Source: Buxus sempervirens (lineage: Eukaryota; Streptophyta; Magnoliopsida; Buxales; Buxaceae). From it: 64,000 nucleotides of DNA. The stretch lies in assembly GCA_947561395.2 (NCBI GenBank), contig OX387193.1:35724255-35788254 (forward strand), in the 5' to 3' direction. Below are positions 1 through 34,109 of the stretch, in pieces (within the stretch, counting starts at the first letter, position 1; each line of letters begins with the position of its first letter). Both the position numbers and the translations under genes were made by a program. The notes beneath the pieces are model-generated. The model was not told the DNA's origin, did not search any database, and saw only the letters and a program-made list of their open reading frames with translations.

Positions 1-143
1 TTTGCCCTAAAATTGCCTTTTGTGCTTATTTGATATTATGGTGTCCATTCACACCTAAATTGAATGGTGGCGACTCTTTGTTTTATTTAATCCCGTGTGA
101 TGATAGAGGAAATCATTAGATCGATTTTTTCCCATGTCTCACA
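1..143 (+). repeat. 3' end of the 5' LTR of element 1
   Basis: All 143 bases match 10038-10180 by eye, and the segment ends in CA. The rest of this LTR (about 1.6 kb, by comparison with the 3' copy) lies left of the window. Confidence 0.93.
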
Positions 144-145
144 AC

Positions 146-165
146 TGGCGACTCTGCTGGGGACT
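146..165 (+). promoter_or_regulatory. Primer-binding site of element 1
   Basis: Two bases after the LTR end comes TGGCGACTCTGCTGGGGACT. It begins with TGG, the complement of a tRNA CCA tail, and its complement would end GTCGCCA. A tRNA-Arg primer, as reported for Ogre elements, is my guess; aligning it to plant tRNA 3' ends would settle it. Confidence 0.75.
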
Positions 166-1640
166 TGTGGATTTGAGCCTTTTGGTGTTTGTTCATGTTT
201 TTGATTTTTTGATTTGCTTGCTATTTTGTGTTCTTAAGCATGTTGAGTATATTTTAAATCTGAATTATTGCTTAAGAATTCATGGGGGTAAAAACATGCT
301 TAATTTTGATTTATAGGATTGTTTCTACAAACATGCGTAGGGGAGGTCCGTTTTGCTGAACCATGCTTATTTCTTGCTATATTTTTAGGATAGCATGTTT
401 TAATTTTCAGCATGATTTCCATGATGATTTTGGGGTGTATAACATGATCATATGTTTGCATGATAGATGATTTTTTTTATGAGCATGTTTTGGGTGCTAT
501 AGGATTGCCTTATTTACTTGTTTATTTTAAATATGCTTTCCTATTATGCCTTGGTTTGTTTATGCATGGCTGCGAAAAGAGTGGCAAGGGTTTGGGACGT
601 TGTGAATGTGACGTATTTTTACAATGCACTGTGCACCTTTTATTTTTACACAGCCTACCCTTAACCTATAGGAAGTTGAACCCGAATGTGTGTAGCTTGG
701 CGCAACGAGGTCGATACTTCGGAAAGCGAAAGTGAAAACATTCACCTTAGAACTTTGAGCTAATGATGTGATGATAATGTGGATCTGGGATTCTGGTCAT
801 CACTAGGCTTGAGTGCTAAGTTGCCATTAAGCCAAAACCCAAAACCCCTACGCTTGAAGGTGGAGTTACACGTTTTTGGCTAAAGTATACAATTACGTGG
901 GGATATGGGTTTGTATGATTGTGGGAAGGCCGTGTGCATGGCTTACAAACCAGGGCATAATGCGGATGCCATATTGAAGGTAAACAAGGTAACAAGGTAA
1001 TCCTATTGCTTTGCATTATTATCATGTCATAGGGGTGTCATGGTGCCCATTGGTTGGGGACAAAATTGGTCCCAAATATGTTTGTTCTTAAGCATGGTGT
1101 AGCCCATAGGAAGAGTCTCTAACTCTGTTTAAAATCAATCCTACCCTATGTACACACAAGAGGCAACAAAAGGGTACCGAATTCTTGAGTATGGTGTCAA
1201 TTTGGAGCGTACATGTGCCTTCCTAAACATGTGTTCTAGCAAAAAGGTCAAGGTCCACTTTGGGACATTGTAGAAGCTTTGCAATGGGTGAACCGTACGT
1301 TTGGATGAACAATGAAAGTGATCAGACCATGTAAAAACTGGAAAAACATAACAGGGTTCCGTAAAACCGCATTTAGTACACGGGCTGAGCTTGCCCGTAT
1401 TAATTATACGGGCTAGGCTTGCCCGTGTTTTCCATATGGTCACGGCTTGCTCGTAATTTGAATACGGGCAAGGCCGGACCGTGGTGAATATACGGTTTTC
1501 TCGGAATATTCAACTTTAATCGGTTTTTCCCACTAAAATCTTCCTTTAACCTTTAAGTAATAATAAAGGGAAACAAGTTTGAATAAAATGCTTCAAAAAA
1601 AAAAAAACAAAATAATTGAAAAAAAAAATGTGAGAGAAAG
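166..1640 (+). other. Upstream leader of element 1, non-coding
   Basis: About 1.5 kb between the PBS and the hairpin array. Small ORFs here are short, with no recognisable domain and no repeat-wide conservation. Two adjacent stem-loops with identical arms, ACGGGC/GCCCGT, sit at 1380-1398 and 1408-1426, and a less perfect related one follows to about 1487. Their ACGG/CCGT arms resemble the hairpins in this element's own LTR at 8517-8564. Confidence 0.6.
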
Positions 1641-1644
1641 GTTC

Positions 1645-3243
1645 CTTGGGCTTCTGAAAGCCTTTGAATTTCAGACTTTTTCAAAACTCTTGGGCTTCTG
1701 AAAGCCTTTGAATTTCAGACTTTTTCTCAAAAACTCTTTGGGCCTCTGAAAGCCTTTGAATTTCAGACTTTTTCTAAAAAAAAAATCCTTTGGGCCTCTG
1801 AAAGCCTTTGAATTTCAGACTTTTTCTCAAAAAAAAAAAATCCTTTGGGCCTCTGAAAGCCTTTGAATTTCAGACTTTTTCTCAAAAACTCTTTGGGCCT
1901 CTGAAAGCCTTTGAATTCCAGACTTTTTATCAAAACTTCTTGGGCCTCTGAAAGCCTTTGAATTTCAGATCCTTTTTCCTTTTCGGGACCTGTTGGAAGC
2001 CCTAGAATATTCCAACAAACCTTTTTGGGCCGTCTATAAGCCTCTGAATTATAGACACATATCTTTTTGGGCCGTCTAAAAGCCTCTGAATTTTAGACAA
2101 CCTTTTCTTTGGGCCGTCTATAAGCCTCTGAATTATAGACACATATCTTTTTGGGCCGTCTAAAAGCCTCTGAATTTTAGACAACCTTTTCTTTGGGCCG
2201 TCTATAAGCCTCTGAATTATAGACACATATCTTTTTGGGCCGTCTAAAAGCCTCTGAATTTTAGACAAACCTTTTCTTTGGGCCGTCTAAAAGCCTCTGA
2301 ATTTTAGACAAATCATTTCTTTGGGCCGTCTAAAAGCCTCTGAATTTTAGACAATCATTTTTTTGGGCCGTCTATAAGCCTCTGAATTATAGACACATAT
2401 TCTTTGGGCCGTCTAAAAGCCTCTGAATTTTAGACAATCATTTCTTTTGGGCTGTCTAAAAGCCTCTGAATTTTAGACAATCATTTCTTTGGGCCGTCTA
2501 TAAGCCTCTGAATTATAGACACATATCCTTTTTGGGCCGTCTAAAAGCCTCTGAATTTTAGACACAACCTTTTTGGGCCATCTAAAAGCCTCTGAATTTT
2601 AGACAAATCCTTTTTGGGCCGTCTAAAAGCCTCTGAATTTTAGACAAATCATTTCTTTGGGCCGTCTAAAAGCCTCTGAATTTTAGACAAATCATTTTTG
2701 GGCCGTCTATAAGCCTCTGAATTATAGACACATCCTCTTTGGGCCGTCTAAAAGCCTCTGAATTTTAGACAAATCATTTCTTTGGGCCGTCTAAAAGCCT
2801 CTGAATTTTAGACAATCATTTCTTTGGGCCGTCTATAAGCCTCTGAATTATAGACACATATCCTTTGGGCCTCTGAAAGCCTTTGAATTTCAGACCTTTT
2901 TTCAAAAATATCCTTGGGCCTCTGAAAGCCTTTGAATTTCAGACTTTTTTCAAAAATTTCTTTGGACCTCTGAAAGCCTTTGAATTTCAGACTTTTATCA
3001 AAAATCCTCGGGCCTCTGAAAGCCTTTGAATTTCAGACCTTTTCTCAAAATATGCCTGGGCCTCTGAAAGCCTTTGAATTTCAGACCTTTTTCAAAAATA
3101 TCCCTGGGCCTCTGAAAGCCTTTGAATTTCAGACCTTTATTAAAAAAAAAAAAAAAAACCCCCAGGCCTCTGAAAGCCTTTGAATTTCAGATCTTTCTCT
3201 CTTTTGTGGGACCTGTTGGAAGCCCTAGAATATTCCAACAATT
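1645..3243 (+). repeat. Tandem hairpin minisatellite, 36 stem-loop units with covarying arms
   Basis: Units of about 42-50 bp, usually starting GGGCC, each hold a short inverted repeat around a conserved loop GCCTYTGAA. A-type arms are TCTGAAA/TTTCAGA. B-type arms are GTCTAAAA/TTTTAGAC or GTCTATAA/TTATAGAC. T-type arms are TGTTGGAA/TTCCAACA. The order is 7 A (to about 1975), 1 T (1986-2018), 20 B (2027-2862; 7 with TATAA and 13 with AAAA arms), 7 A (2867-3205), 1 T (3207-3241). When one arm differs between classes, the other differs to match. Two units carry a mismatch (near 1919 and 2580). The array lies in the leader upstream of gag. ORFs that cross it are by-products of the repeat length. 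Confidence 0.95.
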
Positions 3244-3335
3244 CAAAAAAAAAAAAGCAAATAAATAAAAAAAAATCCAAACTCGTGTTCACCCAGCTTG
3301 CACATAGGCATTCCTAGGCATGTGAATGAGATTAA

Positions 3336-5123
3336 ATGGGCACTGATATTTTTCCTTTATTGTTTTGCCAGGTACCAAGTACACTTGCAACCATAGCTCC
3401 TGTAACCAGATCAAGAGCTCGCGCCATGAATCCCATTGAGAATGAAGCTAATACTCCTCACCCAGATATGGTCCTGCTTCAGGAGCAAGTGGCAGGACTA
3501 GCCCAAATGCTAGAGAACATACTATCAGTGCAAGCCCAACAAGTTCAAGCCCAGAACCAAGCATCCACTTCCAACCAAGCACCTCCACCTCCAATCAATA
3601 TCCCACCTCCGGTTCAACCCATTCCTGAACCCATTTCTGAACCTACCCCTGAACCTATACTGATCAGGGAGGAGATGGTTGAGTCTGAGAAAGAGAATGA
3701 AAAAGAAAATATGAGGGATGAAATAGAAAGAAAATTCATGCACAGGCTGGAGATGATCCAGGATGAAATGAGGGAAGTGAAAGGGATACGTAACTTTGGG
3801 GGCACCAATTTTGAAGATCTGTGCCTATACCCCGATGTATGTCTACCGGCCAAGTTTAAATGCCCAGATTTTGATAAATATGATGGCACTGGCTGCCCAA
3901 TGAGCCATTTGAAGTTATACTGCGGGGCTTTATGCCAGTTTGGCCGGGATGACGGCATACTAATTCAGCTCTTCCAGAGGAGTTTAACTGGAGCTGCTTT
4001 GAGGTGGTTTGCCACTTTGGATCATGGGAAAATAAGAAGGTGGAAGGATTTAGCAGATTCCTTTTTGGCACAATACAGGTTCAACTCTGAGATTATACCA
4101 GATAGGTATGACATAATGAGGATGACAAAGAGAAATGATGAGACCATAAGGCAATATGCTAAAAGGTGGAGGGAGTTGGCTGCACAAGTTAAGCCACCCG
4201 TGGGAGAACCAGAAATGATCTCAACTTTCATCATGACATTAGGGCAACCATTTTACAGTCACTTGGTGGGTCAAACTACCACCAACTTTGCTGCCCTAGT
4301 GCAAGTGGCAGACAGAATTGAAGATGGGATCAAGTCTGGGAAAATAGCTGATTACTCTGCAGTGTTGAACCAGGAAGCTTCCACCACTTTCTCTACACTG
4401 AAAAAGGAGAATGGTAATGAAAGAATAATGAATGAAGAAAGGAGAGAAGCAAAAGTGAATATGGTACAACTTCCCAGGGAACCCTTTCAAATCAATGTCC
4501 ATCCACCTCCTATCAAGCCAACCCATCAAGTTCCTTTGCTGCCTATTCAAATTAATGTCCCTTCTGCACAGCCTGTGAAGAAGGAAACAGAAGTAAGGAA
4601 GAGAAGGGAATTTTCTAAATTGCCTATGAGACCATCTGAGCTTTTGCCTACTTTACTTCAAAAGGGTTATGTGACTTTGAGGTTGCCAAATCCTCATGCA
4701 AGTAAGGGGAAGGGTTATGATTCATCTGCAATCTGTGATTATCATATGAGCACTCCAGGGCATACCACTGATCGCTGCTTGGCCCTAAAGCATGCAATTC
4801 AGGATTTACTGGATAATAACTCCTTATCATTCAATTCAGTTACACCTATCCCACCTACCGATAACAATGGGGCAGGCAACTCAAATGCAATAGGGGCAAT
4901 TTTCTCTGGAGAAAGAAGATTTGACCCTTCTCAGCTTATCGCTCCTATTGGTCCAACAGTCAGGGTTTATCTTGAAAGAAATGCTCCTGGTTATGAGCAG
5001 GAAGGCTTGCCTTACTCAGCAGGAGAAAGAAATTATCTGAAAAAGGGAGAAAAGTCAACTTTTGCCTTTGAGAACAGGGGCAGTTTTCGAACTCCCATGT
5101 TCTCTGAAAAGAAACCTGCATAA
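3336..5123 (+). CDS. gag: Gag polyprotein of element 1, intact
   Basis: A 595-codon ORF for the structural protein that would form the virus-like particle. The N-terminal third is proline- and glutamine-rich with an acidic, charged stretch at about residues 120-150. A retrotransposon Gag core follows at about residues 165-345, with the landmarks FDKYDGTGCP, FQRSLTGAALRWF and RFNSEIIPDR. Near residues 468-482 is a histidine-containing zinc-knuckle variant, CDYHMSTPGHTTDRC (CX2HX5HX4C), as in Tat/Athila-type Gag. The ORF stops before any protease. The first ATG is at 3336; a second in-frame ATG at 3426 (start MNPIENE) aligns better with the start of the element 2 Gag. A pyrimidine-rich run ending CAG at 3371 looks like a splice acceptor, so part of the leader could be an intron; this is speculative. 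Confidence 0.88.
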   Translation: MGTDIFPLLFCQVPSTLATIAPVTRSRARAMNPIENEANTPHPDMVLLQEQVAGLAQMLENILSVQAQQVQAQNQASTSNQAPPPPINIPPPVQPIPEPISEPTPEPILIREEMVESEKENEKENMRDEIERKFMHRLEMIQDEMREVKGIRNFGGTNFEDLCLYPDVCLPAKFKCPDFDKYDGTGCPMSHLKLYCGALCQFGRDDGILIQLFQRSLTGAALRWFATLDHGKIRRWKDLADSFLAQYRFNSEIIPDRYDIMRMTKRNDETIRQYAKRWRELAAQVKPPVGEPEMISTFIMTLGQPFYSHLVGQTTTNFAALVQVADRIEDGIKSGKIADYSAVLNQEASTTFSTLKKENGNERIMNEERREAKVNMVQLPREPFQINVHPPPIKPTHQVPLLPIQINVPSAQPVKKETEVRKRREFSKLPMRPSELLPTLLQKGYVTLRLPNPHASKGKGYDSSAICDYHMSTPGHTTDRCLALKHAIQDLLDNNSLSFNSVTPIPPTDNNGAGNSNAIGAIFSGERRFDPSQLIAPIGPTVRVYLERNAPGYEQEGLPYSAGERNYLKKGEKSTFAFENRGSFRTPMFSEKKPA

Positions 5124-7840
5124 GAAGAATGCACATTTCCTGAGAATCCTAAAGAGCCTTGTTCTCAGGAAGTGATTTCAATAAAGGCTCTTCAAAAAAA
5201 AAAAAAAAAGATTTTCCCCTTTAACATTTTTCTAGAAAAAAAAAAGTTTTCATCAAGGTCCTTTTACTTATAAATCATATCTCTTATTGAATTTCATTGA
5301 GTTGAATATGACTTTGACATTGGGCTCAATTTTGAGACCAAAATCAAAGAAAAAGACATTTTATATGAAAATTCAAATCTTTTTAAGTGTCATGAGAAGA
5401 ATATTTTGCAAAATTATGAAGTGACCAATTTTATGGCCTTTGGAACCAAAGATGACCCACAGTCTTCAACAGAAAAGATAGAAGAAGATTTGAAGTTTCT
5501 TCATTAGAATACAGAAAAAATCGCACCACTTGCTGATTCGTTCAAAGGGAAGTTGATAATATTGTTTGAAGAAAATTTAGGGCTTTGCACTTGAAAATAT
5601 GGGAGAAGATTTGACATTTTCGTTGGAAATAGAATTGGGCATCATTTGATGGAAAGAATCCAAATTCAAAAGATTGATCAAAAGGTGAAGAACTTGTTTA
5701 TAACAGAAGTTCTATTTAAAGAGGCTTTCATGTTGGCAGAAGGTGATTAAGAAGAAAAAAAAAAGAGAAAAAAAAATCCTGAGCCAGTCATGTAATGCAA
5801 CTTTACCAAGTCTGATAATTCAATTTTTTCTTAAAATGATAAGAGGCCTTTCTTTCTTATATCCCGAAAATTTTTGAAATCCCTAGTTAAACCCTTTGAG
5901 CTTGATACATTTTTTTCCAAGTAACCTAAACTGAGAATTGTAACCCCACACTGGGGCAAATTTATTAAGGCATAAAAAAAATGAAGGGACGATTATTGAA
6001 GTTCAAAAGGGATTTTGAATATGTTTTCAGAAAATGGGGCAAAGAAAAAAAAGAAATGAAGAAAAAGAAAGAAAAAAAAGGAAGAAAAAGAAAGAAAAAA
6101 AAGGAAGAAAAAAAATAATCAAATGCTATTTGGAGAATGTCTTCAAAATTGTGAAAAAAAGAATGGAAAAAAGAAGTTCAATATTGGAAAATAAGTTTCA
6201 AATGAAGAAATTAAGTTGAGGGAAGAACTTCATTACTGGGGCAATTTTGTATTCATTCCAAGGGAAGAAATGCCTTAAAAATTACAATTTCAGTTAACCC
6301 ATTTAATCATATGGTATTTGAGCCTTTTATTCCTTTTCTTTCTAAACAAACACCATGCCTTCATTTCGTCCCATTCATAAGTCCTCTTTGATTAAGAAAT
6401 TTTGAATTAAGGTAGCTTTGACTACATAGTTGCTGGTGATGAAGGATTAAAAAAAAAAAGAAAAAAAAGAAAAAAAGAAAAAAAATGGAGAAAATGTAGT
6501 GAAATCCGGAAGGGCGCTACATGGCAAATAATCAGCTATCTACAAGAAGGAAATCGTCAGAGAGGAAAGTCTAGAATTGGCATAGATCCAGGTGAAGTCC
6601 TCATGTTGGTGGTTATTTTGAGATATAGTCACTCTTCAAGTGATTGAGGAAAATTCTCTTTTCAAGACTGAAGCAACATAATCAGAACTATGATATGAAT
6701 CATCTGTGAACAAGTTGATGGCCATCAAAATTGCCATTAGGAAATTATTGCTGAAGTTGAAGTCATAAATTCTCATATCATGGATACAATGGAAAAACAA
6801 TTGCTCTTCAATTGAATGAATGAAAATTTCCTTCTAGACTCGGGCAAAATAGTCAGATTGAAAGAATCGTCATATCTGCAGCATCAATTGACAGACCGAT
6901 GGTCATGGGAATGATTCTAAAGGTTTCGAAGGCTTATTTTGGTCATTCTTCATTTTTTGAAATAATCTTCTCATTATTCAACTTGATTTTAATTCTTTTG
7001 GACTATATGTTAATAAGTGATTGGATCAATTTTTCAAAAAAATATAAAAACACAAAAAAACAAAAACTATATTTTTGGCCTATGATGAGCATCTGTCTTT
7101 TCATAAAACATTCGTTTTGCAAGCATTAGAAAATTCTGAGGCCACTAGTATAAAACATATTTTCTTATGTTTGCATTTGCATTCTTCTATTAGGGTTTCT
7201 TTTTGGCAAAGGTAGAAAAAAAAAGAAAAAGAAAAGAAAAAAAAAAGAAGATAAAAAAGAAAAAAAAGAGGATCATCTCTACTGAGGGGCAAATACTTCT
7301 TCAAACAATCAAAACCGGGGCATGCTCAGTGTTTTTCCTTCTGAGTTTTCATTGGAATGAATTCCAACATCTGGAAGAAGCAATCAAGCTTTAGTCTTCG
7401 AATTTGAAAGAAAAAAAGAAGCTTCGAAGCAATGGCATGTGTTCTTCATTAAACAAGGGTTCCCAATTCTTCAATCATGAAGAAGGATTTTACTAGGGCA
7501 GCAAGAAGGCATGAAAGACAGATCGTGGGTTGTAAAGGCATGAGGTTAGATCAATAGATCATGATCCATCAATCAAGATGGGGGCATTCACTTGGGCAAT
7601 TAAAAAGCATGAAGACAGGTTATGGGCAGTAAGGGCACATACATCGTTATTGAGAGAGAAAGAAGATAAAGAAGCAAAAGCAAGTTACAGAATATTCAAG
7701 CACAGGTTCGGGCATCAAATGACACCCAGGTATATCAAATAAGAAAATCAATCAAGAAAATTCAAAAAGTGAAAAACATCAAAATCAATTGAGTTTGCAG
7801 TGGTCAATTTTAAATCCACATTCTTTTCAAAATTTGCTTG
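5124..7840 (+). other. Non-coding internal region downstream of gag
   Basis: A-rich DNA with several GAAAAA-type runs (6030-6110, 6450-6485, 7215-7270) and no protease, reverse transcriptase or integrase motif in any frame. Phrases such as a TTTGAGCCTT line and a TTTCGTCC line near 6317-6370 recur in the matching part of element 2 (13650-13900), so the two elements share this region by descent. Small ORFs here are lysine-rich products of the A-runs. Confidence 0.7.
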
Positions 7841-8213
7841 TCTCAGATTTCTTTTCATAGCCACGAGAGCTCCAAGAAATCTGAGATAAGGAAGAGACGC
7901 CACCCCATCAGACTTCAAGCAGGGGTTTCATTGGCTATCTTCGAATCCATGTTTTTATCATTTCTTTGTTTGACCAAAGCAAGTTCAATTCCTGAGATGT
8001 TTTTCAAATGTGTAATTTTGAGTTGTGCCTATTCATTGTGCTACACCTGCAGGCCACCCAGAAAAATTGTTTTTTTTATTATTTTCTCCACTTTTTTCAG
8101 GAGATTAATGTCCATATTAGTTGTAAGTTGCAAGGATTGCCACTTTACCCACTTTTGTTTAAAATTTTTTTTGTCTCAAATCTCACTTCATAGCCCACAA
8201 GTGCTCAGTGAGA
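7841..8213 (+). repeat. Two related stem-loops near the 3' end of element 1
   Basis: The first (7841-7886) has a perfect 13-bp stem, TCTCAGATTTCTT/AAGAAATCTGAGA. The second (8181-8213) has a 7-bp stem, TCTCACT/AGTGAGA. Their loops are alike (both contain TCATAGCC and end in a CTC), although the stem sequences differ. An ORF at 7838-8302 crosses both but has no recognisable domain. Confidence 0.8.
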
Positions 8214-8360
8214 GGAGAGAGGAAGATTTGGCCCTTAAGCTGAGGGATTTCTTAGCAAATCTTCCACAATCAATTCTTTTTTTTCAAAAATCATCCCTTT
8301 AATCCTTGCAAAGTGCAATTGATTAGACAAAAATCTCAGAAAGTGCAATTGGTGGGTCTT

Positions 8361-8410
8361 TTTGCTCTCTGCTTGTAATTGGTTCCAATTACCAGCAAAG
8401 AGGGGGCAGC
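8361..8410 (+). promoter_or_regulatory. Polypurine tract of element 1 inside a hairpin
   Basis: CAAAGAGGGGGCAGC directly precedes the 3' LTR (TGTAGACACC at 8411) and would prime plus-strand DNA. Just upstream, GTAATTGG/CCAATTAC (8375-8392) makes a perfect stem with a 2-base loop. It extends through GCT/AGC toward CTCT/AGAG, so the 3' arm reaches into the purine tract. Confidence 0.8.
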
Positions 8411-8516
8411 TGTAGACACCCCAAATTGCAATAAAAACAGGCCAAAAAAGCATAAAAATTGAATAAACAGGCTTTGCCCGTATTTCCTTCACGGGCCCAT
8501 CGCGCCCGCAAATTAT

Positions 8517-8564
8517 CTACGGACAGGCGCGTCTGTAGTAGCTATACGGTCCCTATTGGACCGT
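8517..8564 (+). repeat. Paired hairpins in the U3 part of the element 1 LTR
   Basis: CTACGGAC/GTCTGTAG (8517-8538, one G-T pair) and TACGGTCC/GGACCGTA (8545-8564, perfect). They lie about 215 bp upstream of the TATA box, further than in the other LTRs of this window. Confidence 0.8.
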
Positions 8565-8780
8565 AGTGTATTTACAGGCATTAAAGACACGTGCGAGTTT
8601 TGTCCTTCTCTCGATTTCCGAGCTTTATTTGAAGTCCAATATATCTTTAAACGAGCGAATTATGTCTTTTATTCGCTCAAGTCACCTTGGTTGGCTATGG
8701 ATGTGCATTATCTCTGTATTTCACTCTATCTTAAAGACCAGGCTATATCCTTCTGGACCAACCATGCCCCTGGGTGTGTC

Positions 8781-8788
8781 TATAAATA
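8781..8788 (+). promoter_or_regulatory. TATA box of the element 1 LTR
   Basis: TATAAATA followed by AGAGGCTC, within a U3-like region 370 bp after the LTR start. Transcription would start about 30 bp downstream. Confidence 0.7.
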
Positions 8789-8959
8789 GAGGCTCATTCC
8801 TCTAGCTAAAGGCCACGAAATTTTGAAGTCAAAGAAGTACAAGGAACTCCAAGAGAAGAACTCCTGCTGCTCTGCCTGCTCAATCCAGGTAAGTCCCCTA
8901 TCCCTTTTTATTTTCTGTCTTCAATTCTAGAAGTAATAGGATCATCTCTATTGCTGTAG

Positions 8960-9245
8960 AATAAGGCCATATTTATTTTGTATCCCTAAACTTGTCTCCA
9001 AGTACCTCAAGGATCTCTCTAGCTGTAAAACATGAAGAGAGAACTAGGGGAAAAGAGAACAGGTGGATCCCTAGAATAGAACCCCATATCTGTTTTTTTC
9101 CTTTTTTCTAAAATAAAGCCTGTGATTGTGTTTGTGTACCCAAACCTATCTCTAAGTACCTCAAGAGTCTCTCTAGCCGTAAAACGTGAAGAGAGAACTA
9201 GGGGAAAGGGGAACAGGTGGATCCGTAGGGTAGACCCCCATGTGC
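8960..9245 (+). repeat. Tandem duplication inside the element 1 LTR
   Basis: Two diverged copies of a roughly 150-bp unit. Each carries an AAGTACCTCAAG line, then GAAGAGAGAACTAGGGGAAA and AACAGGTGGATCC. Copy 1 runs from about 8975 to 9105 and copy 2 from about 9125 to 9245. Confidence 0.8.
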
Positions 9246-10183
9246 TCTAATTTGTGAGATGTGGCTGTTTTGAATATCCTGATCATGTTTAATTGTTTTT
9301 ATGATGAATCTGAATGAATAACATGAATCTATGATGTTTATAGCATGAGATCCCCTATTTTTGCCAAAATTTGGATTTTTGCCACTTTTGCACCTACAGC
9401 ACTGTTTTCGTGATTTTTGTGATTTTAGGCTAGGATCTTGGATTTATCATGATCAATATGGTAGATCTGAATCCAGAAGCCTGAAAGTAAATTCTAGGGT
9501 TTCATGATGTGGTTTTTAAATTATTTTTCATTATTGAGAGAAGACCCTACGGTCTCAGTTCTCCCCTTTTGATGTTCTTCATCAACGTGGGTATTTTTGG
9601 CTTTGATTTTCGGATCTAATGTGAAATTTGGGCTCTACCTATGTACTGGACTATTCAAGTTAAATTTTGAAATATTTTATAAAAATCATATTTTTCTAGA
9701 TTTCTAGAATTTGACTTGAAGCCAGATTTTTGGATTTTTCACTTTAAATTGATTTTATTTGATTTTATCTCAATTTTGTTTTGATCATGAAACCCTAGGA
9801 ATGGTATGATCATGTTTGATAGTTCTGGATCAATCAGACTATTCATATGAAAAAACCATACAATTTTGTCCTTTTTTGTGATTTTGTGTGATTTTTATAG
9901 CAAGCTTTTTCCTTTACTTTAAACATGAACAATACCTGGCAACCACCTTGTGTGGATGAATAGGGGTGCCTAACACCTTCCTCTGTTCATAACTTAATCC
10001 CCTTACCCATCTCTGGTTGTTTTTTTAGGAGGGATATTTTGCCCTAAAATTGCCTTTTGTGCTTATTTGATATTATGGTGTCCATTCACACCTAAATTGA
10101 ATGGTGGCGACTCTTTGTTTTATTTAATCCCGTGTGATGATAGAGGAAATCATTAGATCGATTTTTTCCCATGTCTCACACCC

Positions 10184-10690
10184 GGGATAGCACAGCTTTC
10201 AAGACGACCACCCTTGGGCTACCCTTCTCATGTTCGGGATAGCACAGCCTCGGCTACCCTTCCCCCACATACGGGATAGCACAGCTTTCAAGAAGGCCAT
10301 ATACGGCATCCACCCTTGGGCTACCCTTCCCACATACGGGATAGCACAGCTTTCAAGAAGGCCATATACGGCATCCACCCTTGGGCTACCCTTCCCACAT
10401 ACGGGATAGCACAGCTTTCAAGAAGGCCATATACGGCATCCACCCTTGGGCTACCCTTCCCACATACGAGATAGCACAGCTTTCAAGATGTTTCTTTTTC
10501 ATATATATAGCCATATACGGCATTCACCCTTGGGCTACCCTTCCCATATACGGGATAGCACAGCTTTCAAGATGTTTCTTTTTCATATATAGCCATATAC
10601 GGCGTCTACCCTTGGGCTACCCTTGCCAATCCTTGGCATAGCACAGCTTTCAAGACGTTTCATTTTCATGCATAGCCACATACGGCGTTT
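10184..10690 (+). repeat. 65-bp tandem repeat in the element 2 leader
   Basis: GGGATAGCACAGC-type starts occur near 10184, 10236, 10273, 10338, 10403, 10468 (GAGATAGC), 10552 and 10634 (GGCATAGC). The steps 10273-10338-10403-10468 are exactly 65 bp. Between units, GCTACCC faces GGGATAGC across an 11-base loop, a 7-bp stem with one bulged A. GCC/GGC around ATATAC forms a small second stem. The ORF at 10381-10641 is a product of the repeat. Confidence 0.88.
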
Positions 10691-15775: not shown

Positions 15776-16022
15776 TGTATCCGGTCATGTATACCGGATA
15801 CACAGCCTCTCCTTCATATCCGGACATGAAGACCGGATATATGAAGATATTTCTGCAGGATTCACGCCACTTGACCGACAAGCTCGCAGCGGCATTTAAT
15901 TTTCAAATGATTGTGTTTGTATCCGGACTTGAAGACCGGATACAAAGGAGCCTTAGTGTATCCGGACTTGAAGTCCGGATACAAAGGAGCCTTAGTGTAT
16001 CCGGACTTGAAGTCCGGATACA
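15776..16022 (+). repeat. Five-hairpin array just upstream of the LTR TATA box
   Basis: Stem-loops at 15776-15802 (TGTATCCGG/CCGGATACA), 15816-15840 (ATATCCGG/CCGGATAT), 15916-15946 (TTTGTATCCGG/CCGGATACAAA), 15957-15983 and 15996-16022 (both TGTATCCGGACTT/AAGTCCGGATACA, perfect 13-bp arms). The last ends 11 bp before the TATA box. The first two differ in their outer base pair (T-A versus A-T) in a matched way. Confidence 0.92.
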
Positions 16023-19180: not shown

Positions 19181-19428
19181 TGTATCCGGCATTTAATGTC
19201 GGATACACTACACTTTCTTTGTATCCGGCATATTATGTCGGATACACTACACTTCCTTTGTATCCGGCATATTATGTCGGATACAAACACAATTATTTCC
19301 AAAATTTAATTTTCTGCACGTATCTGTCAGCGAATCCGCGTGAATCTCACGGGCAAATCTCTTGTATCCCGCAATATATGTCGGATATGAAGAAAAGCAT
19401 GTGTATCCGACATATATGGTCGGGTACA
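19181..19428 (-). repeat. TATA-proximal hairpin array of the reverse LTR
   Basis: Stem-loops at 19181-19208, 19220-19246 and 19257-19287 have TGTATCCG/CGGATACA arms (the third extends to TTTGTATCCG/CGGATACAAA) around GCATATTATGT-like loops. Two weaker ones lie at about 19363-19389 and 19402-19428 (TGTATCCGAC/GTCGGGTACA, one mismatch). The arms match those of the element 2 LTR and the loops differ. Confidence 0.9.
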
Positions 19429-20002
19429 AGCATGATATTTACAGATTTGCCTCTCGACTTGACTGATTCAACCGATTTGACCGATTTGACACTTTTGGAT
19501 ATCTGTGGATTGTCCCCTGTGAATTTTGGTTTAGTCCCTGAGATATTTGGCAAGTTTTGGATATTTAAAGATTACCCCCTGAGATATTTTGCTGTGTTTG
19601 TTGCCACGTGTGAAGTTTCCAGTTTTGCTGTTGGGAACTTCGACAAGTCATATCTTCTGCACCCGGACTCCGATTTGGGCAAACTCAATTGCATTAGAAC
19701 CGTATCGGAGCCCTCTATTCACTGGGATAGGATTAAGCAGTTGATTTAGGGTTCGGCAAAAAGTCAACTTTTGGCTCCCCCTTAAGTTTGACCGGCCTAC
19801 AGATCCTTCATCCGAACTCCGATTCCAGCAAACTCAATTGCGTTGGAACCGTGTCGGGATTCTCTATCCCTTGAGATAAAGCAAGGTGGCCAATTATCAC
19901 TTGATAAAATAGTCAATTTTCGCCCCCTTAGGGTTTGACTTTTCAGCTAGGGTTTTTATTTTCAGCACTTCCAGGGGTGCAAAAATAAGGTGCTTACACA
20001 CA

Positions 20003-20440
20003 TGTACATATGTGTACACATGTGTGTATGTACACATGTACCCATGTGTGTACATGTGTACACATGTACATGTGTATACACATGTACATGTATATATGTG
20101 TACACAAGTACACATGTGGATATGTGAACACATGTACATGTGTGTAAACATGTGCACATGTGTGTACATTTGTACACACACATGTACGTGTACATCTGTG
20201 TACATTTGTACACACAAATGTACATGTACATCTGTGTACATATGTACACATGTGTGTACATGTGTACACATGTATGTACATGTACACGTACAACAACATA
20301 TACTTGTGTACATGTACACACGCACACACATGTATACCTGCGTATGCATGTGTGTACTTGTGTACACATGTAAGTACATTTGTTGATGTGTACCGGCTTA
20401 CTTGCATATATGTGTACACATGTATGTTCATGTACACACG
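20003..20440. repeat. Alternating purine-pyrimidine TGTACA-rich spacer
   Basis: Long runs strictly alternate purine and pyrimidine (ACATGTGTACAC-like) and are full of 6-10 bp palindromes. Similar spacers lie at about 21475-22165, 22735-23035, 23575-23785 and 24600-24885. Confidence 0.9.
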
Positions 20441-20789
20441 CATATATTAAGGTAGGCAACAAGTACCCGCAAATAAAACTAAGGTACCCAGAAAATAATA
20501 CAAAGGTACCCCGCAGTTAAGGCGAAGGTACCCCAAAGAAAGAAACACGAACAAACGTCAACGCGCTGATGTTGATCTCCAACACGCGAATGTTTCAGCT
20601 AAAGAAGACAACTGACGCGCGCGCTTTTAAAAGGACCGTTCGCACGTTGAAGTATGTTAATAATTTTTTCCTGGGGTACCTTCGGTATAAGGGGGTGTAC
20701 CTTCATCTTCCACTGTGGGGTACCTCCGTTTTAAATAGGGTACCTTTACCATATTTTTGGGCATTTTTTTTGGGTGTACCTTAATCTTC

Positions 20790-20802
20790 AATGTGTGTGT
20801 GT

Positions 20803-20834
<32 letters not shown>

Positions 20835-21160
20835 ATACATGCAAACATATATGAATATACACACACACACATATATGTCTATATACACACACATATATGT
20901 ATATCACACACACATATATGTCTATGTACCCACACACACATATACGTATATATACACACACACATATATGCATATCACACACACATATATGTCTATATAC
21001 CCACACACACATATACGTATATACACACACACACATATATGTATATATACGCAAACACATATATACACACACATATATATGTACTTGTACACACCCACAT
21101 ATATATACACACATACATAGTGTGTGTATGTACACACACACATAGAATATTAAGGAACTC
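20790..21160. repeat. (TG)n and ACACATATATGT microsatellite between M1 and M2
   Basis: Starts with an almost pure (TG)n run (20792-20835), then about 300 bp of ACACACATATATG repeats with period near 30 bp. It forms the loop region between the two inverted arms. Confidence 0.9.
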
Positions 21161-23785
21161 CCAAAAAAAAAATTGCACCAAAAAACGGTAAAGGTACCCT
21201 ATGTAAAACGGAGGTACCCCACAGTGGAAGATGAAGGTACACCCCCTTATACCGAAGGTACCCTAGGAAACAATTACTAACAAACTTCAACGCGCGAACA
21301 GTCCTTTTAAAAGCATGCGCGTTAGTTGTCTTCTTTAGCCGAAATGTTCGCGCGTTGATGTTTGTTCGTATTTCCTTCTTCGGGGTACCTTCGCCTTAAC
21401 TGCGGGGTACCTTTGTATTATTTCTTGGGGTACCTTAGTTTTAATTGGGGGTACCTGTTGCCTACCTTAATATATGCGTGTGTACATCTACATACATATG
21501 TACACATATATACAAGTACATGTGTACACATCAACAAATGTACTTACACGTGTACACAAGTACACACATGTATACGCAGGTATACATGTGTGTGCGTGTG
21601 TACATGTACATGTACACAAGTATATGTTGTTGTACGTGTACATGTACATACATGTGTACTAATGTACACACATGTGTACACACATGTACATGTGTGCACA
21701 TGTGTACATGTCTACGCATATATACATGTACATGTGTACACATCAACAAATGTACTTACATGTGTACACAAGTACACACATGTATACGCAGGTATACATG
21801 TGTGTGCGTGTGTACATGTACATGTACACAAGTATATGTTGTTGTAAGTGTACATGTACATGTACATACATTTGTACACATGTACACACATGTGTACATA
21901 TGTACACAGATGTACATGTACATGTGTGTGTACACATGTGTACACACATGTACATGTGTGCACATATACACATGTGTACATGTGTACACATGTGTACATG
22001 TGTACATGTGTACACATGTGTACATGTCTACGCATATAGACATGTACATGTGTACACATATACACGTGTACATGTGTAAACAGATGTACATGTACATGTG
22101 TACACATGTACACACATGTGCATATGTAAAGGTTCACGTACACATGTTAGTGCACAGGTACATGTGTAAATGGCTCAGGTACCCCAAGAAACTAGACCAA
22201 GGGCACCACCCAATTAAGCCTAAGGTACATCAACAAATAAGTCAAAAGTACCCCCCCAATGATGCCTTACTGTAGCCACAATTATGAAGCCAGGTATTGT
22301 ATGGGTACCCCACAAAACACGTAAGTACCGCAAAAATAATATCAAGATACCCTATAGGTAAGGCGAAGGTACCCCAAAGAAGGAATTACTAAGAAAGGAA
22401 AACGTGCAGACGTTAAGGTCCAACGCATGAACGTTTAAGCTATAAAAGAAGATAACGCGCGAGCGTTTAGAAGAACGTTCATGCGTTGAAGTTCTTTACA
22501 CAGAGCATTTACTGAGGTACCTTCAGTATAATGGGTTGTACCCCAATCTTCCATGGGGATTACCTTAATTTTACAGGGGGTACCCATATTTGATTTTGTG
22601 ACTTTTTTTTGGGGACAACTAAAGGCTTGTATGGGGGGTACATTGGGCTGATCTGGGGGATACCCCACCGGCTTACAAGATGGCACCCTGCCTTATATAT
22701 AAATATATGTGTTACATAACCCATAAGATATACGTACAACTACGTACGCGTGTGTACATGTACGTGTACATGTGTGCATGTGTACACATGTGTTCGTATG
22801 CATGAACATGTGTACATGAACCTTTACTTATGCACATGTATGGGTACATGTGTGTACTTGTGATCACATGTATGTACATTTGTATATGTGTACACATGTG
22901 TGTACTTGTGTACACAGGTATGTATGTGTACACGTACAACAACATATACGTGTGTACTTGTACACATTCACGTGTACATGAATAAATATTAGTACACATG
23001 CATGTACATGTGTACACGTGTACATGGCTCAGGTACCCAATGAATTTAGACCAAGGGCACCACCCAAATAAGCCTAAGGTACATCAGCAAATAAGTCAAA
23101 AGTACCCTCCAATGATGCCTTACGGTAGCCAAAATTATGAAGCCAGGTAATGTATGGGTACCCCAAATAACATGTAGGTACCCCAAAAATAATATTAAGA
23201 TACCCTATAGGTAAGGCGAAGGTATCCCAAATAAGGAATTACTAAGAAACAGAAACGCGCGAACGTTTAAGCTATAAAAGAAAATAAGGCGCGAGCGTTA
23301 AGAAGAACGTTCACGCGTTGAAGTTCTTTACCAGAGCATTTACTGAGGTACCTTCGGTATAATGGGGTGTACCCCAATCTTCCATGGAGAGTACCTGAAT
23401 TTTACATGGGGTACCCATATTTGATTTTGTGACTTTTTTTTTGGGGACAACTAAAGGCTTGTATGGGGGGTACATTGGGCTGATCTAGGGGACACCCAAC
23501 CGGCTTACAAGATGGTACCCTGCCTTATATATGCATATATGTGTTACATAACCCATAAGATGTACGTACAACTACGTACGCGTGTGTACATGTACGTGTA
23601 CATGTGTGCATGTGTACACATGTGTGCGTGTGCATGAACATGTGTACATGAACCTTTACATATGCACATGTACGAGTACATGTGCATGCACATGTATACC
23701 TACGTATACATGTGTGTACTTGTGATCACATTTATGTACATTTGCATATGTGTGCACATGTACATGTGTGTACTTGTGTACATAC

Positions 23786-24150
23786 ATCTATTATCTATAA
23801 TTTATAGATAATAGATTTTCTTATAAGAAATTTCTTATACATTTCATATATATATATATATATATATATAAGAAATGTATAAACTTTCTTATACATTTCT
23901 TATATGTATATGTATATAACAATGGATATAGAAATTTATATATATAAACGTATAAGAAATTTTCATATATATTTAAGAAAATTTCATATATACATTTATA
24001 TGTATAAGAAAAATAAATTTCTTACGTATATACATATGTATATATATATAAACATTTATATATATATATACATATACATATACATATACATATATATGTA
24101 CATAAAATCCAATGCTCTTATATATATGTATAAATATATGAATATATATC
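23786..24150. repeat. AT-rich palindromic centre of the M3-M6 inverted repeat
   Basis: 23786-23816 is a palindrome with 15-bp arms (ATCTATTATCTATAA/TTATAGATAATAGAT) around one T. Next, TTATACATTTC and GAAATGTATAA face each other across a (TA)n run at about 23836-23882. The rest is TATATA/TACATA repeat. It sits at the symmetry centre of M4 and M5. Confidence 0.85.
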
Positions 24151-24959
24151 AGCCTTTAGGTACCCCCCATACAAGCCTTTAGGTGTCCCAAAACCCTGTA
24201 AAAGTAGGGGGTCCCCCATGGAAGTTTGAGGTACACCCTGTTATACCGAAAGTACCTCAGTAAATTTTCTGCATAAAGAACTTCAATGCGCGAATGTTCT
24301 TCTTAACGCTCGCGCCTTATTTTCTTTTACAGCTTAAACGTTCGCACGTTGGACCTTAATGTCCGCGAGTTTCCGTTTCTTAGTAATTCCTTCTTTGGGG
24401 TACCTTCGCCTTACCTATAGGGTATCTTAATATTATTTTTGGGGGTACCTACTTGTTATTTGGGGTACCCATACATTACTTGGCTTCATAATTTTGGCTA
24501 CCGTAAGGCATCATTGGGGGGGTACTTTTGACTTATTTGTTGATGTACCTTAGGCTTATTTGGGTGGTGCCTTGGTCTAAATTCTTTGGGTACCTGAGCC
24601 ATGTACACATGTACACATGTACATGCATGTGTACTCATATTTATTCATGTACACATGAACGTGTACAAGTACACACGTATATGTTGTTGTACGTGTACAT
24701 GTACATACCTGTGTACACAAGTACACACATGTGTACGTGTGTACACACATGTACCCGTACATGTGCATATGTAAAGATTCATGTACACATGTTCATGCAC
24801 ACGAACACATGTGTACACATGCACACATGTACACGTACATGTACACACGCGCACGTAGTTGTATGTACATCTTATGGGTTATATAACACATATATGTATA
24901 TATAAAGCAGGGTACCATCTTGTAAGCCGGTGGGGTATCCCCCAGATCAGCCCAATGTA

Positions 24960-24979
24960 CCCCCCCCCCCCCCCCCCCC
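24960..24979. repeat. 20-base C tract
   Basis: An uninterrupted run of 20 C within M6. The corresponding place in M3 (22635-22641) has only 6 G on the opposite strand, so this tract expanded in one copy. Confidence 0.9.
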
Positions 24980-25560
24980 ATACAACCCTTTAGTTGTCCC
25001 CCAAAAAAAGTCACAAAATCAAATATGGGTACCCCTTGTAAAATTCAGGTACTCCCCATGGAAGATTGGGGTACACCCCATTATACCGAAGGTATCTCAG
25101 TAAATGCTCTGCGTAAAGAACTTCAACGGGCGAACGTTCTTCTAAACACTCACGCGTTATCTTCTTTTATAGCTTAAACGTTCGCGCGTTGGACCTTAAC
25201 GTCCGCGCGTTTTTGTTTCTTAGTAATTCCTTCTATGGGGTACTTCGTCTTACCTATAGGGTAGCTTCATATTATTTTTGGGGTACCCACATTTTATTTG
25301 GGGTACCTATACATTACTTGGCTTCATAATTGTGGCTACAATAAGGCATTATTTGGGGGCACCTTTGGCTTATTTGTTGATGTACCTTAGACTTATTTGA
25401 GGGGTGCCCTGGTCGTATTTCTTGGGGTACCTCGCTACAACTGTGGGCTATTGGTGCTCTCTTCGTTGGGTTACGTTTTGGAAAACTTTGCACAGTACCT
25501 TGGGCTTAAGTGTGGGGTAGCTTGGCCTTATTTAGGGGGTACTTAGATTTATATGTATTG

Positions 25561-31530: not shown

Positions 31531-33795
31531 TTATACCATTGCCTTGCTCCATCTAGAGCTTTGACTTGCATATGGTGTTTGTGGTGGAGTTTGAGTGTGA
31601 ATTGTATTTGCCGTTTGAGTTGGTACGTCATGGTTCCTTTTCATCTTTGGAGCCCTTTCTAAAAAATGTTTTGGTGGACGTCCACTATGACCTCGACCCG
31701 GTTTCCTCTTCATTCCAGCAACGGTGATTGGAATATTTTCAGATAAATTCTCTCATTCATTCCCATCCACTGCGCTCGGAGGCTTGTTCTTCAGCACATT
31801 TCCAACTTCGGTCATTAAAATGGCCAGCCCATTCGCAGCGCTTTCATATGCCTCAACAGTTTCGGTAGCAATTGCTGATAATTTAATGGCATTATGGCAA
31901 AGTTCTCTGTACCATTTAACCATGGACAACTTTGTCACTTCCTCATTTGACATACGACTATAACTTGGGCTGCAACCCTTTGCATCCTTTGTCCACTGCT
32001 TTAATATGTATTGACTTGGGATCCTCTTAATATTTAGCATGTCAAGTACTTTTAGTGCATGGCTACACAAAATCCCAACAAATTCAAACTTACGGCAACT
32101 GCATTTCAACATATCATCCTCAGTGTTAACTGTAACAACATGCCCTCGAGGATTATCAAATAAGCTAAATTTATACATTTTGGATGTCTCAGTATGTGAA
32201 GTCTCATTAACAACAAGATTATGAGCTTTTGCATATTCCGATTGAAATTTCTCAAACAGCTTCGGTGTGTATACCTCCCTTGCATGCTTTAATATAATGA
32301 TTTCTGCCATCATTCTTGGAATACGTTGGCTCATATTATAATTGTCTTCCTGTTCCTTGTAACGGATATCATCCAAAAGCCTTGAAAAATGCTAGGAAAA
32401 ACACGAGACGTCCATGTTGTACTTCGTGTATTTCTTTAACCGGCTGTTGAAGCTTTCACTCAGTTAGGTGCTCTTCATGTCAGCACAAAATGTAGTTCTT
32501 CCATATACATGGGCCCATTTCTCCTTTATCTTAAATATGCCCTTCAGCCACTCATTGTCTTGGAGATCGTATTTTTGAATCATTGCATCCCACGCTTCCA
32601 AGAACTCAGCCTCTTCCTCGTAATCATATATACACCAATTGAAATCAGATGAAAAGGAGATTCTCGTTTGGAATACGTGACCGAGATGCTTCAATGAATT
32701 TTGGTGCAAATGACATACACATAACCAATGATAGGTGTTCGGAAAAACAAAAGCAATTGCAACTGACATAGCTTCATCTTGGTCTGTAAAGATGGTAATT
32801 GGCCTTTTCCCATTCATTGCCTTTATAAATGTTTCAAACAACCACACAAAGGATGCCTTCGTCTCATCATAAAACATTGCGGCTCCAAACACTACCATTC
32901 GTTTGTGATGGTTGACTCCAACCAATGGTGCAAATGGCCTTTGAGCTTCGTTTGTCCTATAAGTTGTATCAAAACAAACGACATCTCCAAAATTATTGTA
33001 ATCTTCTTGCATCTTCCGATCAGCCCAGAAAAAGTTTGTTATTTCATTGTTCTCATCAACTTGTATAGCATAAAAGAAAGACGGATTGTCAATCAGTTGT
33101 CCTTCAAAATAAATTAATAACCTTGATCCGTCTCCTACTTGCATTGCTCTCCGTCTGTCACGCATCTGGTTCTTATGGTCAATAGGTAGGAAGCCCAAAT
33201 TCTCTCTTCCGCCGGCTTCTCTACCCATGAACTCAAAAGCATGCTTTGGTCGTATGCCACTGCTTTTTGCTAATACAATTTCTGCTAATTGCGCCTCTAT
33301 AATTTTCCTCTATGAAGGTAGCATGTGGGCCTTACTTGGGGTAACAACCTCATGATTATGCTCCTCCTCAAAGCTCGCTACAAAATACATGCCATTGTCT
33401 TTAGCTTTCACACTCATGTGTGTCAAACAACCTGTACGTGTTTCCTTTCTAGGGCTCTTCACATCTTTATCCCGTTTGTCTGTTCCCTTCTTCCCTTCTT
33501 TATAGCAACAAAACTTCCTAGACAACTCCTTACCATCTTTCAGATTTTTCCATCTTGTACTCTTTCGAATACTAAAGCCCTTTTGTGCTGCATAAGCATT
33601 GTAAAATCTATACGTTTCATCAGTAGATGCGAACTCCATTCCCACGGATGGCCTAAAATTTTGAGTATGCCCTTCGTCGTCATCGAACCTTAGCGCTCTT
33701 ATAACTCTAGGCACTGTATTTATATCCACTATATCATCACTAACCTCATCTCCACTTAATTGCTCACTTCCACTTGTAGAAATGACTTGCTCCAT
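31531..33795 (-). pseudogene. FAR1/MULE-type transposase, four in-frame stops
   Basis: A single minus-strand frame of about 750 codons. It starts at ATG 33795 with an acidic N-terminus. A FAR1 DNA-binding domain follows at 33640-33330, with zinc-ligand-like C/H residues ending EEEHNHEVV. A MULE transposase core lies at about 33030-32700 (CFDTTYRTN and FTDQDEAM carry two of the catalytic acids). A SWIM zinc finger is at about 32110-32040 (CSCRKFEFVGILCSHAL). The C-terminal tail holds a GRPPKHF-type basic motif. In-frame stops lie at 33310-33312, 32464-32466, about 32392-32394 and 31753-31755. Several sit where the family usually has glutamine, so CAG/CAA to TAG/TAA is likely. It would have bound the element ends and cut DNA in the nucleus. 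It is not a domesticated FAR1 gene, given the stops and context. Confidence 0.88.
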
Positions 33796-34109
33796 TTGTC
33801 CCTACATTATAAAACAGATATTCCATTTAGAATATCATACTAATAACAATATATAGTACCCATGAACATCACAGGGTAACCATTCTCTTCAACCATGTGC
33901 CAAGTTGGTGTATTTTGAGGGCTTATTACAAAACTTGATTATTTCGGAATAATTTCTTACTACCTAGACACATGGTACCTACGAATTATTTTTACGGTAC
34001 GCCAAGGGTATGAAGGTGGTACATAAGTTTTGGACCTTCTTCATCCCATAGGTTTGGTTAAAATAAGATAGAATATACTGGTAAAAAATAAAGTCAAAAA
34101 AAAAGACAA

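Follow-up and report, generated by a model that had tools for sequence, protein, structure and literature searches.

A hairpin array of variable unit number in the leader of a putative Gag-only Ty3/gypsy retrotransposon from Buxus sempervirens

The closest described counterparts of the element considered here are the TR-GAG retrotransposons, which are non-autonomous, some of them having been reported as mobile in the accessible part of one account (PMC9784723). Element E1, which lies at the start of the 64 kb of Buxus sempervirens DNA analysed here (the window), resembles them in its two LTRs, its single Gag ORF, and the absence of pol, and differs in the hairpin array of its leader, a feature that goes unmentioned in the accessible portions of the TR-GAG descriptions (PMC10552921, PMC9784723). 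A second point of reference is the Tat lineage of Ty3/gypsy elements, for which a dual RNase H has been described (PMC10508981). A pol-bearing relative of E1, locus L065, has the same set of RT, two RNase H domains, and integrase and is assigned to Tat from this domain content rather than from an RT tree, whereas E1, being devoid of pol, cannot be placed by it. Sireviruses also bear multi-copy palindromes in their non-coding parts, and the CGG-CCG repeated motif upstream of the TATA box, called Sirevirus-specific in the accessible part of PMC2829016, has its likeness in the U3 of E1 and its relatives; however, Sireviruses are Ty1/copia elements, and the array units at 1645–3243 have no CGG-CCG core and are located in the leader, not upstream of the LTR TATA box in U3. 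Finally, BARE1 produces distinct RNAs for Gag translation and for packaging (PMC3735527), which in E1 is only predicted, but the 104-nt BARE1 intron lies just past the end of gag, while the predicted intron of E1 extends from the LTR to just before gag and holds the array. No hairpin or tandem-repeat array in a retrotransposon leader was found in the titles and abstract openings of the literature on the subject. To our knowledge, how plant LTR retrotransposons discriminate genomic RNA from gag mRNA, and how the RNA of Gag-only elements enters particles, are largely open questions.

All features of E1 are on the forward strand. The 3′ end of its 5′ LTR (1–143, the remainder being outside the window) is 100% identical to 10038–10180, the end of the 3′ LTR (8411–10180, with the end set by this identity and the start by eye). 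The primer binding site TGGCGACTCTGCTGGGGA (146–163) begins 2 nt past the LTR end and is exact in 17 of the 20 other copies read. It is followed by a leader of 3.2 kb, which contains a cluster of CGG...CCG quasi-palindromes at 1376–1500 (found by eye, with one perfect stem GCCCGTAT/ATACGGGC) and then the hairpin array, which the sequence-only reading had also placed in the leader and which lies between the primer binding site and gag. The Gag ORF (PF03732, E 1e-12) is taken as 3426–5123, from the first ATG after the predicted splice acceptor; the open frame itself begins at 3336, upstream of this acceptor, and the chosen start (MNP...) resembles the MNP start of Gag in the neighbouring element E2. 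The next 3.3 kb (5124–8396) are non-coding and without detected pol; this part of the element is co-linear with the window in five of the eight copies read (over ~4.6–9.0 kb), while L068 matches in two pieces, L063 to 7.26 kb only, and L065 has pol instead of a match. A polypurine tract recognised by eye (8397–8410) precedes the 3′ LTR, whose TATA box TATAAATA (8781–8788) is kept in 19 of 19 matched copies (20 searched). The description of this copy as Gag-only holds as far as Pfam and tblastn reach: Pfam at E 0.01 gives no match in eight of the nine sense ORFs of at least 60 aa between Gag and the 3′ LTR, and tblastn with a gypsy RT of the same window finds no pol in E1. Thus, by its two LTRs, its PF03732 ORF, and the lack of pol domains in those eight ORFs and with that one RT query, E1 appears to be a Gag-only Ty3/gypsy retrotransposon with a variable-number hairpin repeat in its leader.

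The array comprises 36 units in the order 7 A, 1 T, 20 B, 7 A, 1 T, precisely as had been noted from the sequence alone. The first A block (1644–1979) contains seven units with arms TCTGAAA/TTTCAGA and is followed by a single T hairpin (1983–2017, arms TGTTGGAA/TTCCAACA), by the B block of 20 units (2024–2862; 13 B1 units with arms GTCTAAAA/TTTTAGAC and 7 B2 units with GTCTATAA/TTATAGAC), by the second A block of seven units (2863–3205), and by the terminal T hairpin (3206–3240). Each unit was said to form a stem-loop, and the inner 7-bp stem is indeed intact in 35 of 36 units, the class-length stem (7 bp in A units, 8 bp in the other two classes) being complete in 34. Unit 6 has a single inner mismatch, on the 3′ arm, and unit 22 has lost the outermost pair alone, with 7 bp retained (a hairpin scan with a G+C filter misses it). 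The loop is 9 nt long in A and B units and 11 nt in T units. The sequence-only reading regarded the loop GCCTYTGAA and the GGGCC lead-in as kept throughout; the former does not apply to T units, where the loop is GCCCTAGAATA, and the latter is missing from units 1, 2, 19, 31, and 35 and from both T units. The outermost pair is unconstrained (C..C in A units). Hairpin stability is low (−5.1 to −8.0 kcal/mol), and only 15 of the 36 are present when the array is folded at minimum energy. With the rest of the window as the reference for hairpin excess, the same scan gives 128 hairpins in ~62 kb beyond the array, about 40 of them in TG/CA-type repeats at 20–25 kb.

Several other identities of the array were considered. 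A coding function is ruled out by 28–32 stops per forward frame. Rfam at gathering thresholds yields no match across 1–10300, and neither a Gag relative nor the exact A hairpin was found in viral contigs. A pseudoknot between lead-in and loop can be drawn in the window (GGGC/GCCT in 32 of 36 units, with AGGC instead in unit 35 and GGG/CCC in both T units, and nothing in unit 31), but was rejected: nearly all departures from it across copies are one-sided, and 16% of shuffled lead-ins and loops form such a helix. In the A units (1644–3205), the lead-in together with the 5′ arm (GCCTCTGAAA) looks as if copied from the loop (GCCTTTGAAT), and the B loop is likewise GCCTCTGAA; judging from this likeness, A units may have originated by a short internal duplication.

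The family is large. In the 676.5 Mb Buxus sempervirens host assembly, the exact A hairpin occurs 19,085 times on both strands, and the exact B1 and B2 hairpins 3002 and 1782 times. Searching at the DNA level with the array produced 2296 first-look candidates; the 40 that were scored all match (best match rows of 78–100% identity) and were read. In these copies a loose anchor, offset in some units (e.g., window unit 35), picked out 1356 candidate units, and after 56 unclassifiable ones had been dropped, 1300 remained: 528 A, 510 B1, 205 B2, and 57 T. The block order A-(T)-B-A-T is retained in most copies; a T unit separates the first A block from the B block in about half of them, and 38 of 40 have one called close to the array end (the exceptions being L009 and L023). 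A few copies, e.g., L008, L023, and L035, are rearranged or lack blocks. The Gag reading frame is well preserved, 67 of 77 scored matches (from 11,894 candidates) being without stops, and substitutions relative to the window amount to 3.9, 3.6, and 10.6% at the first, second, and third codon positions; therefore, Gag is under purifying selection. At some loci, Gag copies of equal score or arrays with identical unit spacing lie ~10–12 kb apart (C10: 18210622, 18220506, 18230400; C1: 15836487, 15848601), which suggests that whole elements may have been tandemly duplicated there.

The central claim of the sequence-only reading was that the two arms change together between hairpin classes, and this has been borne out: along the shortest path, all five inner-pair differences between classes are two-sided (A/B1 at pair 5, B1/B2 at pair 6, A/T at pairs 2, 3, and 6), only the outermost pair showing a one-sided change between A and B. 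Within classes the picture is the opposite. Among 9157 pair cells, 145 departures are one-sided (58 G-U, 56 A-C, 31 other) and only 5 two-sided, the latter representing one haplotype in four loci against 1.14 expected under independence, and among variant types found in at least three loci, 13 are one-sided and one is two-sided. The contrast between class differences (5:0) and within-class types (1:13) gives a Fisher p of 5e-4, to be read with the caveat that events within arrays are not independent. Single-arm changes as frequent as paired ones in independent copies had been named beforehand as a refutation, and the outcome is mixed: within classes they far outnumber paired changes, while the class-defining changes are paired. 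Many of the within-class single-arm changes presumably represent neutral decay after insertion. Taken together, the counts indicate that pairing was maintained whenever a new hairpin class spread and was amplified.

Paired change had also been taken as the usual sign of selection for structure, but selection on RNA rather than on DNA is not supported. No preference for G-U over A-C is seen, either in the 40 copies (58 vs. 56) or in genome-wide exact matches at pair 5 (744 vs. 864), and, therefore, the wobble test for RNA-level selection is negative. Genome-wide, 374 double changes at pair 5 were left out of the count of new events, since an identical string arises from B units with T in the loop. 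Exact B-type matches across the genome number 4873, and pair 6 is intact in 4784 of them (3002 + 1782 vs. 70 + 19), a strong linkage that is largely due to descent. Linkage between arm and arm was compared with that between arm and spacer, and the recombination test in B units reveals no clear difference: per unit, B1/B2 chimaeras breaking pair 6 (10 of 712) are about as common as arm/spacer chimaeras (7 of 639), although the interval is about twice as long. In ten arrays of pol-bearing elements, one-sided changes comprise 10 G-U and 4 A-C, which are small numbers, and two-sided changes are absent. A general lesson is that covariation of the arms in tandem arrays should be taken for RNA structure only after a wobble test and a contrast of class differences with within-class variants.

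The hairpin core, including lead-in and loop, varies less than spacers and flanks. In the 40 copies, arms depart from the class majority at 0.54% of A/T and 2.09% of G/C sites, and loops at 0.60% and 1.81%, respectively, whereas the outermost positions of A and B units show 14% departures over both. The flanking leader diverges pairwise from the window by 4.95% at A/T and 7.82% at G/C sites; against the halved values (~2.5% and ~3.9%), variation in the core is reduced ~4–5-fold at A/T sites and ~2-fold at G/C sites. Single spacer positions vary by up to 55%, a value inflated by indels since offsets were fixed. Homogenisation could also reduce core variation, though it should affect the spacers alike.

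The array had been noted in an element that lacks pol, but it is not special to such an element: pol-bearing relatives carry arrays at the same place. Locus L005 together with the adjoining L065 has an A+B array and Gag, followed on the same strand and in separate frames by RT, RNase H, a second RNase H (RVT_3), and integrase; in L065 Pfam identifies PF00078, PF17917, PF13456, and PF00665 (RT, native RNase H, additional RNase H, and integrase). With the L065 RT, 91 matches were scored out of 11,565 candidates, 90 of them stop-free and, the query itself aside, 98% identical; L065-type pol is therefore young and abundant. Leaders were read upstream of 10 of the 91 RTs, picked for long open frames, and all ten contain an array of A hairpins that closes with T and has no called B unit; a similar acceptor comes next. 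One of the 91 RTs also lies 4.4 kb downstream of the L032 array on the same strand. The array of E1 thus appears to be shared with pol-bearing relatives of the Tat type.

Leader and Gag do not diverge in step. In tblastn with E1 Gag, L032, L040, and L005 show 68–71% protein identity, the other 36 matching loci (window included) 84–100%, and L014 gives no match. Nevertheless, the leader pieces of L032 and L040 are 87–97% identical to E1, and identity falls to 77–81% at the gag start. This similarity is in part a selection effect because these loci were found by their arrays, but leader pieces of L069 and L075, selected by RT and read over the leader, are also 87–97% identical to E1. L005 is a mosaic, with 90–91% DNA identity to E1 over the first 600 nt of gag and then a drop. 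Such sharp drops, which coincide with the gag start in L032 and L040 and lie inside gag in L005, suggest that a leader module may have been exchanged between elements.

Splice-site scoring, with a position matrix drawn up for the purpose, places the array within a predicted 5′-UTR intron. The predicted donor CAG/GTAAGT (8886–8894; here and below, the slash in splice sites marks the junction, with the exon ending at 8888) is located in the LTR and is the second best on the forward strand of the 64 kb by this matrix; it is identical in 19 of 19 matched copies (20 searched) at a local identity of 84–91%. The predicted branch point, polypyrimidine tract, and 3′ splice site before gag occupy 3348–3372 (exon start 3372); with a score of 10.4, this acceptor ranks fifth on the forward strand by the same matrix. 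Among 39 matched copies, 38 are complete, 36 of which retain its AG/G; the preceding T-rich tract varies in length and sequence while remaining T-rich, and CAG/GTAC is present in 10 of 10 leaders of pol-bearing elements. Because the array is inside the predicted intron, only unspliced RNA would be expected to carry it. The comparison here would be with a retroviral Psi-like packaging signal, confined to unspliced genomic RNA and bound by the Gag nucleocapsid; on the first of these points, the array offers splice sites that are predicted and conserved.

On these grounds, we tentatively regard the array as a multivalent cis-acting element of the genomic RNA, situated in a leader common to Gag-only and pol-bearing elements, a reading that is quite possible, if short of probable. 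Transcription is predicted to start in the LTR; joining of the LTR donor to the acceptor before gag would yield a spliced gag mRNA that loses the rest of the LTR, the primer binding site, and the whole array, so that the array would be retained by full-length genomic RNA only. Its main role would then be capture by Gag, i.e., packaging, and perhaps dimerisation, as an arm could find its complement in any unit of its own class, whether on that RNA molecule or on another. By keeping a leader like that of pol-bearing ones, Gag-only elements might have their RNA enter the same particles. The array would grow and shrink via slippage or template switching, and new arm versions would spread only with both arms matching. 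Packaging is the likeliest role, and the anatomy seems to fit a cis-acting RNA element best, with a mutational origin close behind because the hairpins are weak, the wobble signal is missing, and broken units are tolerated. An objection to the RNA-signal reading is that high leader identity could arise from repeated recombination without any function.

A bolder version is that an intronic array of tens of hairpins serves as a fast-evolving packaging code marking genomic RNA only, which Gag-only parasites would share with their pol-bearing partners by leader exchange at the gag boundary, and which would pass from A to B and on to B2 only when both arms change as a pair and the new version is then amplified along the array; at present, we consider this unlikely. 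Whatever the array's function, this single genome contains a wealth of natural variants of the family (the 19,085 exact A hairpins), together with intact Gag and young pol-bearing relatives, and as the leader is common to elements whose Gag differs, packaging specificity is directly testable.

The strongest competitor of an RNA signal, doubtful but deserving serious attention, is that the array arose by mutation and has no function. While the element is replicated or reverse-transcribed, hairpins would induce slippage or template switching, perfect ones would multiply best, one arm may copy the other, and paired classes would simply be what amplifies. The wide range of unit number (23 to 54 anchors per copy), the rearranged copies, the tolerance of single-arm variants in many units, the absence of a wobble bias, and the single within-class paired haplotype (5 cells in 4 loci vs. 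1.14 expected) speak for this. The form in which the sequence-only reading had proposed it, repair of one arm from the other, fares worse, since copying between arms seems infrequent, with 145 one-sided and 5 two-sided cells, and functionless growth stays as the main rival; however, it does not readily explain either the low variation of lead-in and loop relative to spacers or the presence of same-place hairpin arrays in Gag-only, pol-bearing, and E2-type elements.

Rather improbable is a role at the DNA level, in which the units, like the Sirevirus motifs, would bind a dimeric plant factor as an enhancer or chromatin element in the transcribed leader. The missing RNA-specific wobble signal would agree with it, as would the CGG-CCG palindromes in U3 upstream of the TATA box and the cluster at 1376–1500, which recall Sireviruses as described in the accessible part of PMC2829016, but A, B, and T arms differ and have little common recognition sequence beyond AAGCC...GAAT, and the array, as mentioned, has no CGG-CCG core and sits outside U3. 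Least probable by far is control of splicing or translation by a long, weakly structured leader that would delay splicing or block scanning, with 3′ arms as decoy acceptors held in stems: A and B 3′ arms do end in CAG or TAG, and those of A units score 6.6 where the acceptor before gag reaches 10.4, but T units have no AG in the 3′ arm, and the decoys are putative acceptors scored with the matrix drawn up here. A cis-acting element of the genomic RNA remains the preferred reading.

The related element E2 also has a leader array. This tandem array (10252–10688, forward strand) is built of a different weak hairpin, unrelated to that of E1 yet located at the same place in the leader. The E2 Gag core is 59% identical to that of E1, its gag is broken by stops, and tblastn detects no E2 RT; the same matrix finds no good acceptor before its gag, the best, with a score of 6.0, lying inside the E2 array. 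E2-type arrays have 40 matches in the genome (284 candidates), and two copies were read besides the window. Central arm triplets, assigned by eye in 27 units, are CCC/GGG (14), CTC/GGG (5), CTC/AAG (3), CTC/GAG (2), and CCC/GAG, CCC/AGG, and GCC/GGC (one each), i.e., a paired version coexists with wobble and broken ones. The 3′ LTR of E1 directly abuts E2 array units at 10181, and E1 seems to have been inserted into the leader array of E2, the 5′ flank of E1 being outside the window.

Other palindromes are also present in the window. Those with CGG or CCG cores are located in U3 just upstream of the TATA box in E1 (8467–8565, forward strand), in E2 (15776–16013), and in a third LTR on the minus strand (19181–19287). 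In the E1 palindromes, inner bases change on both sides between copies, as judged by eye. Farther along, open frames at 31753–33801 on the minus strand resemble a FAR1/MULE-type transposase, and in the region 20000–25400 palindromic repeats of TGTACA/ACATGT, including inverted duplications, span ~5 kb.
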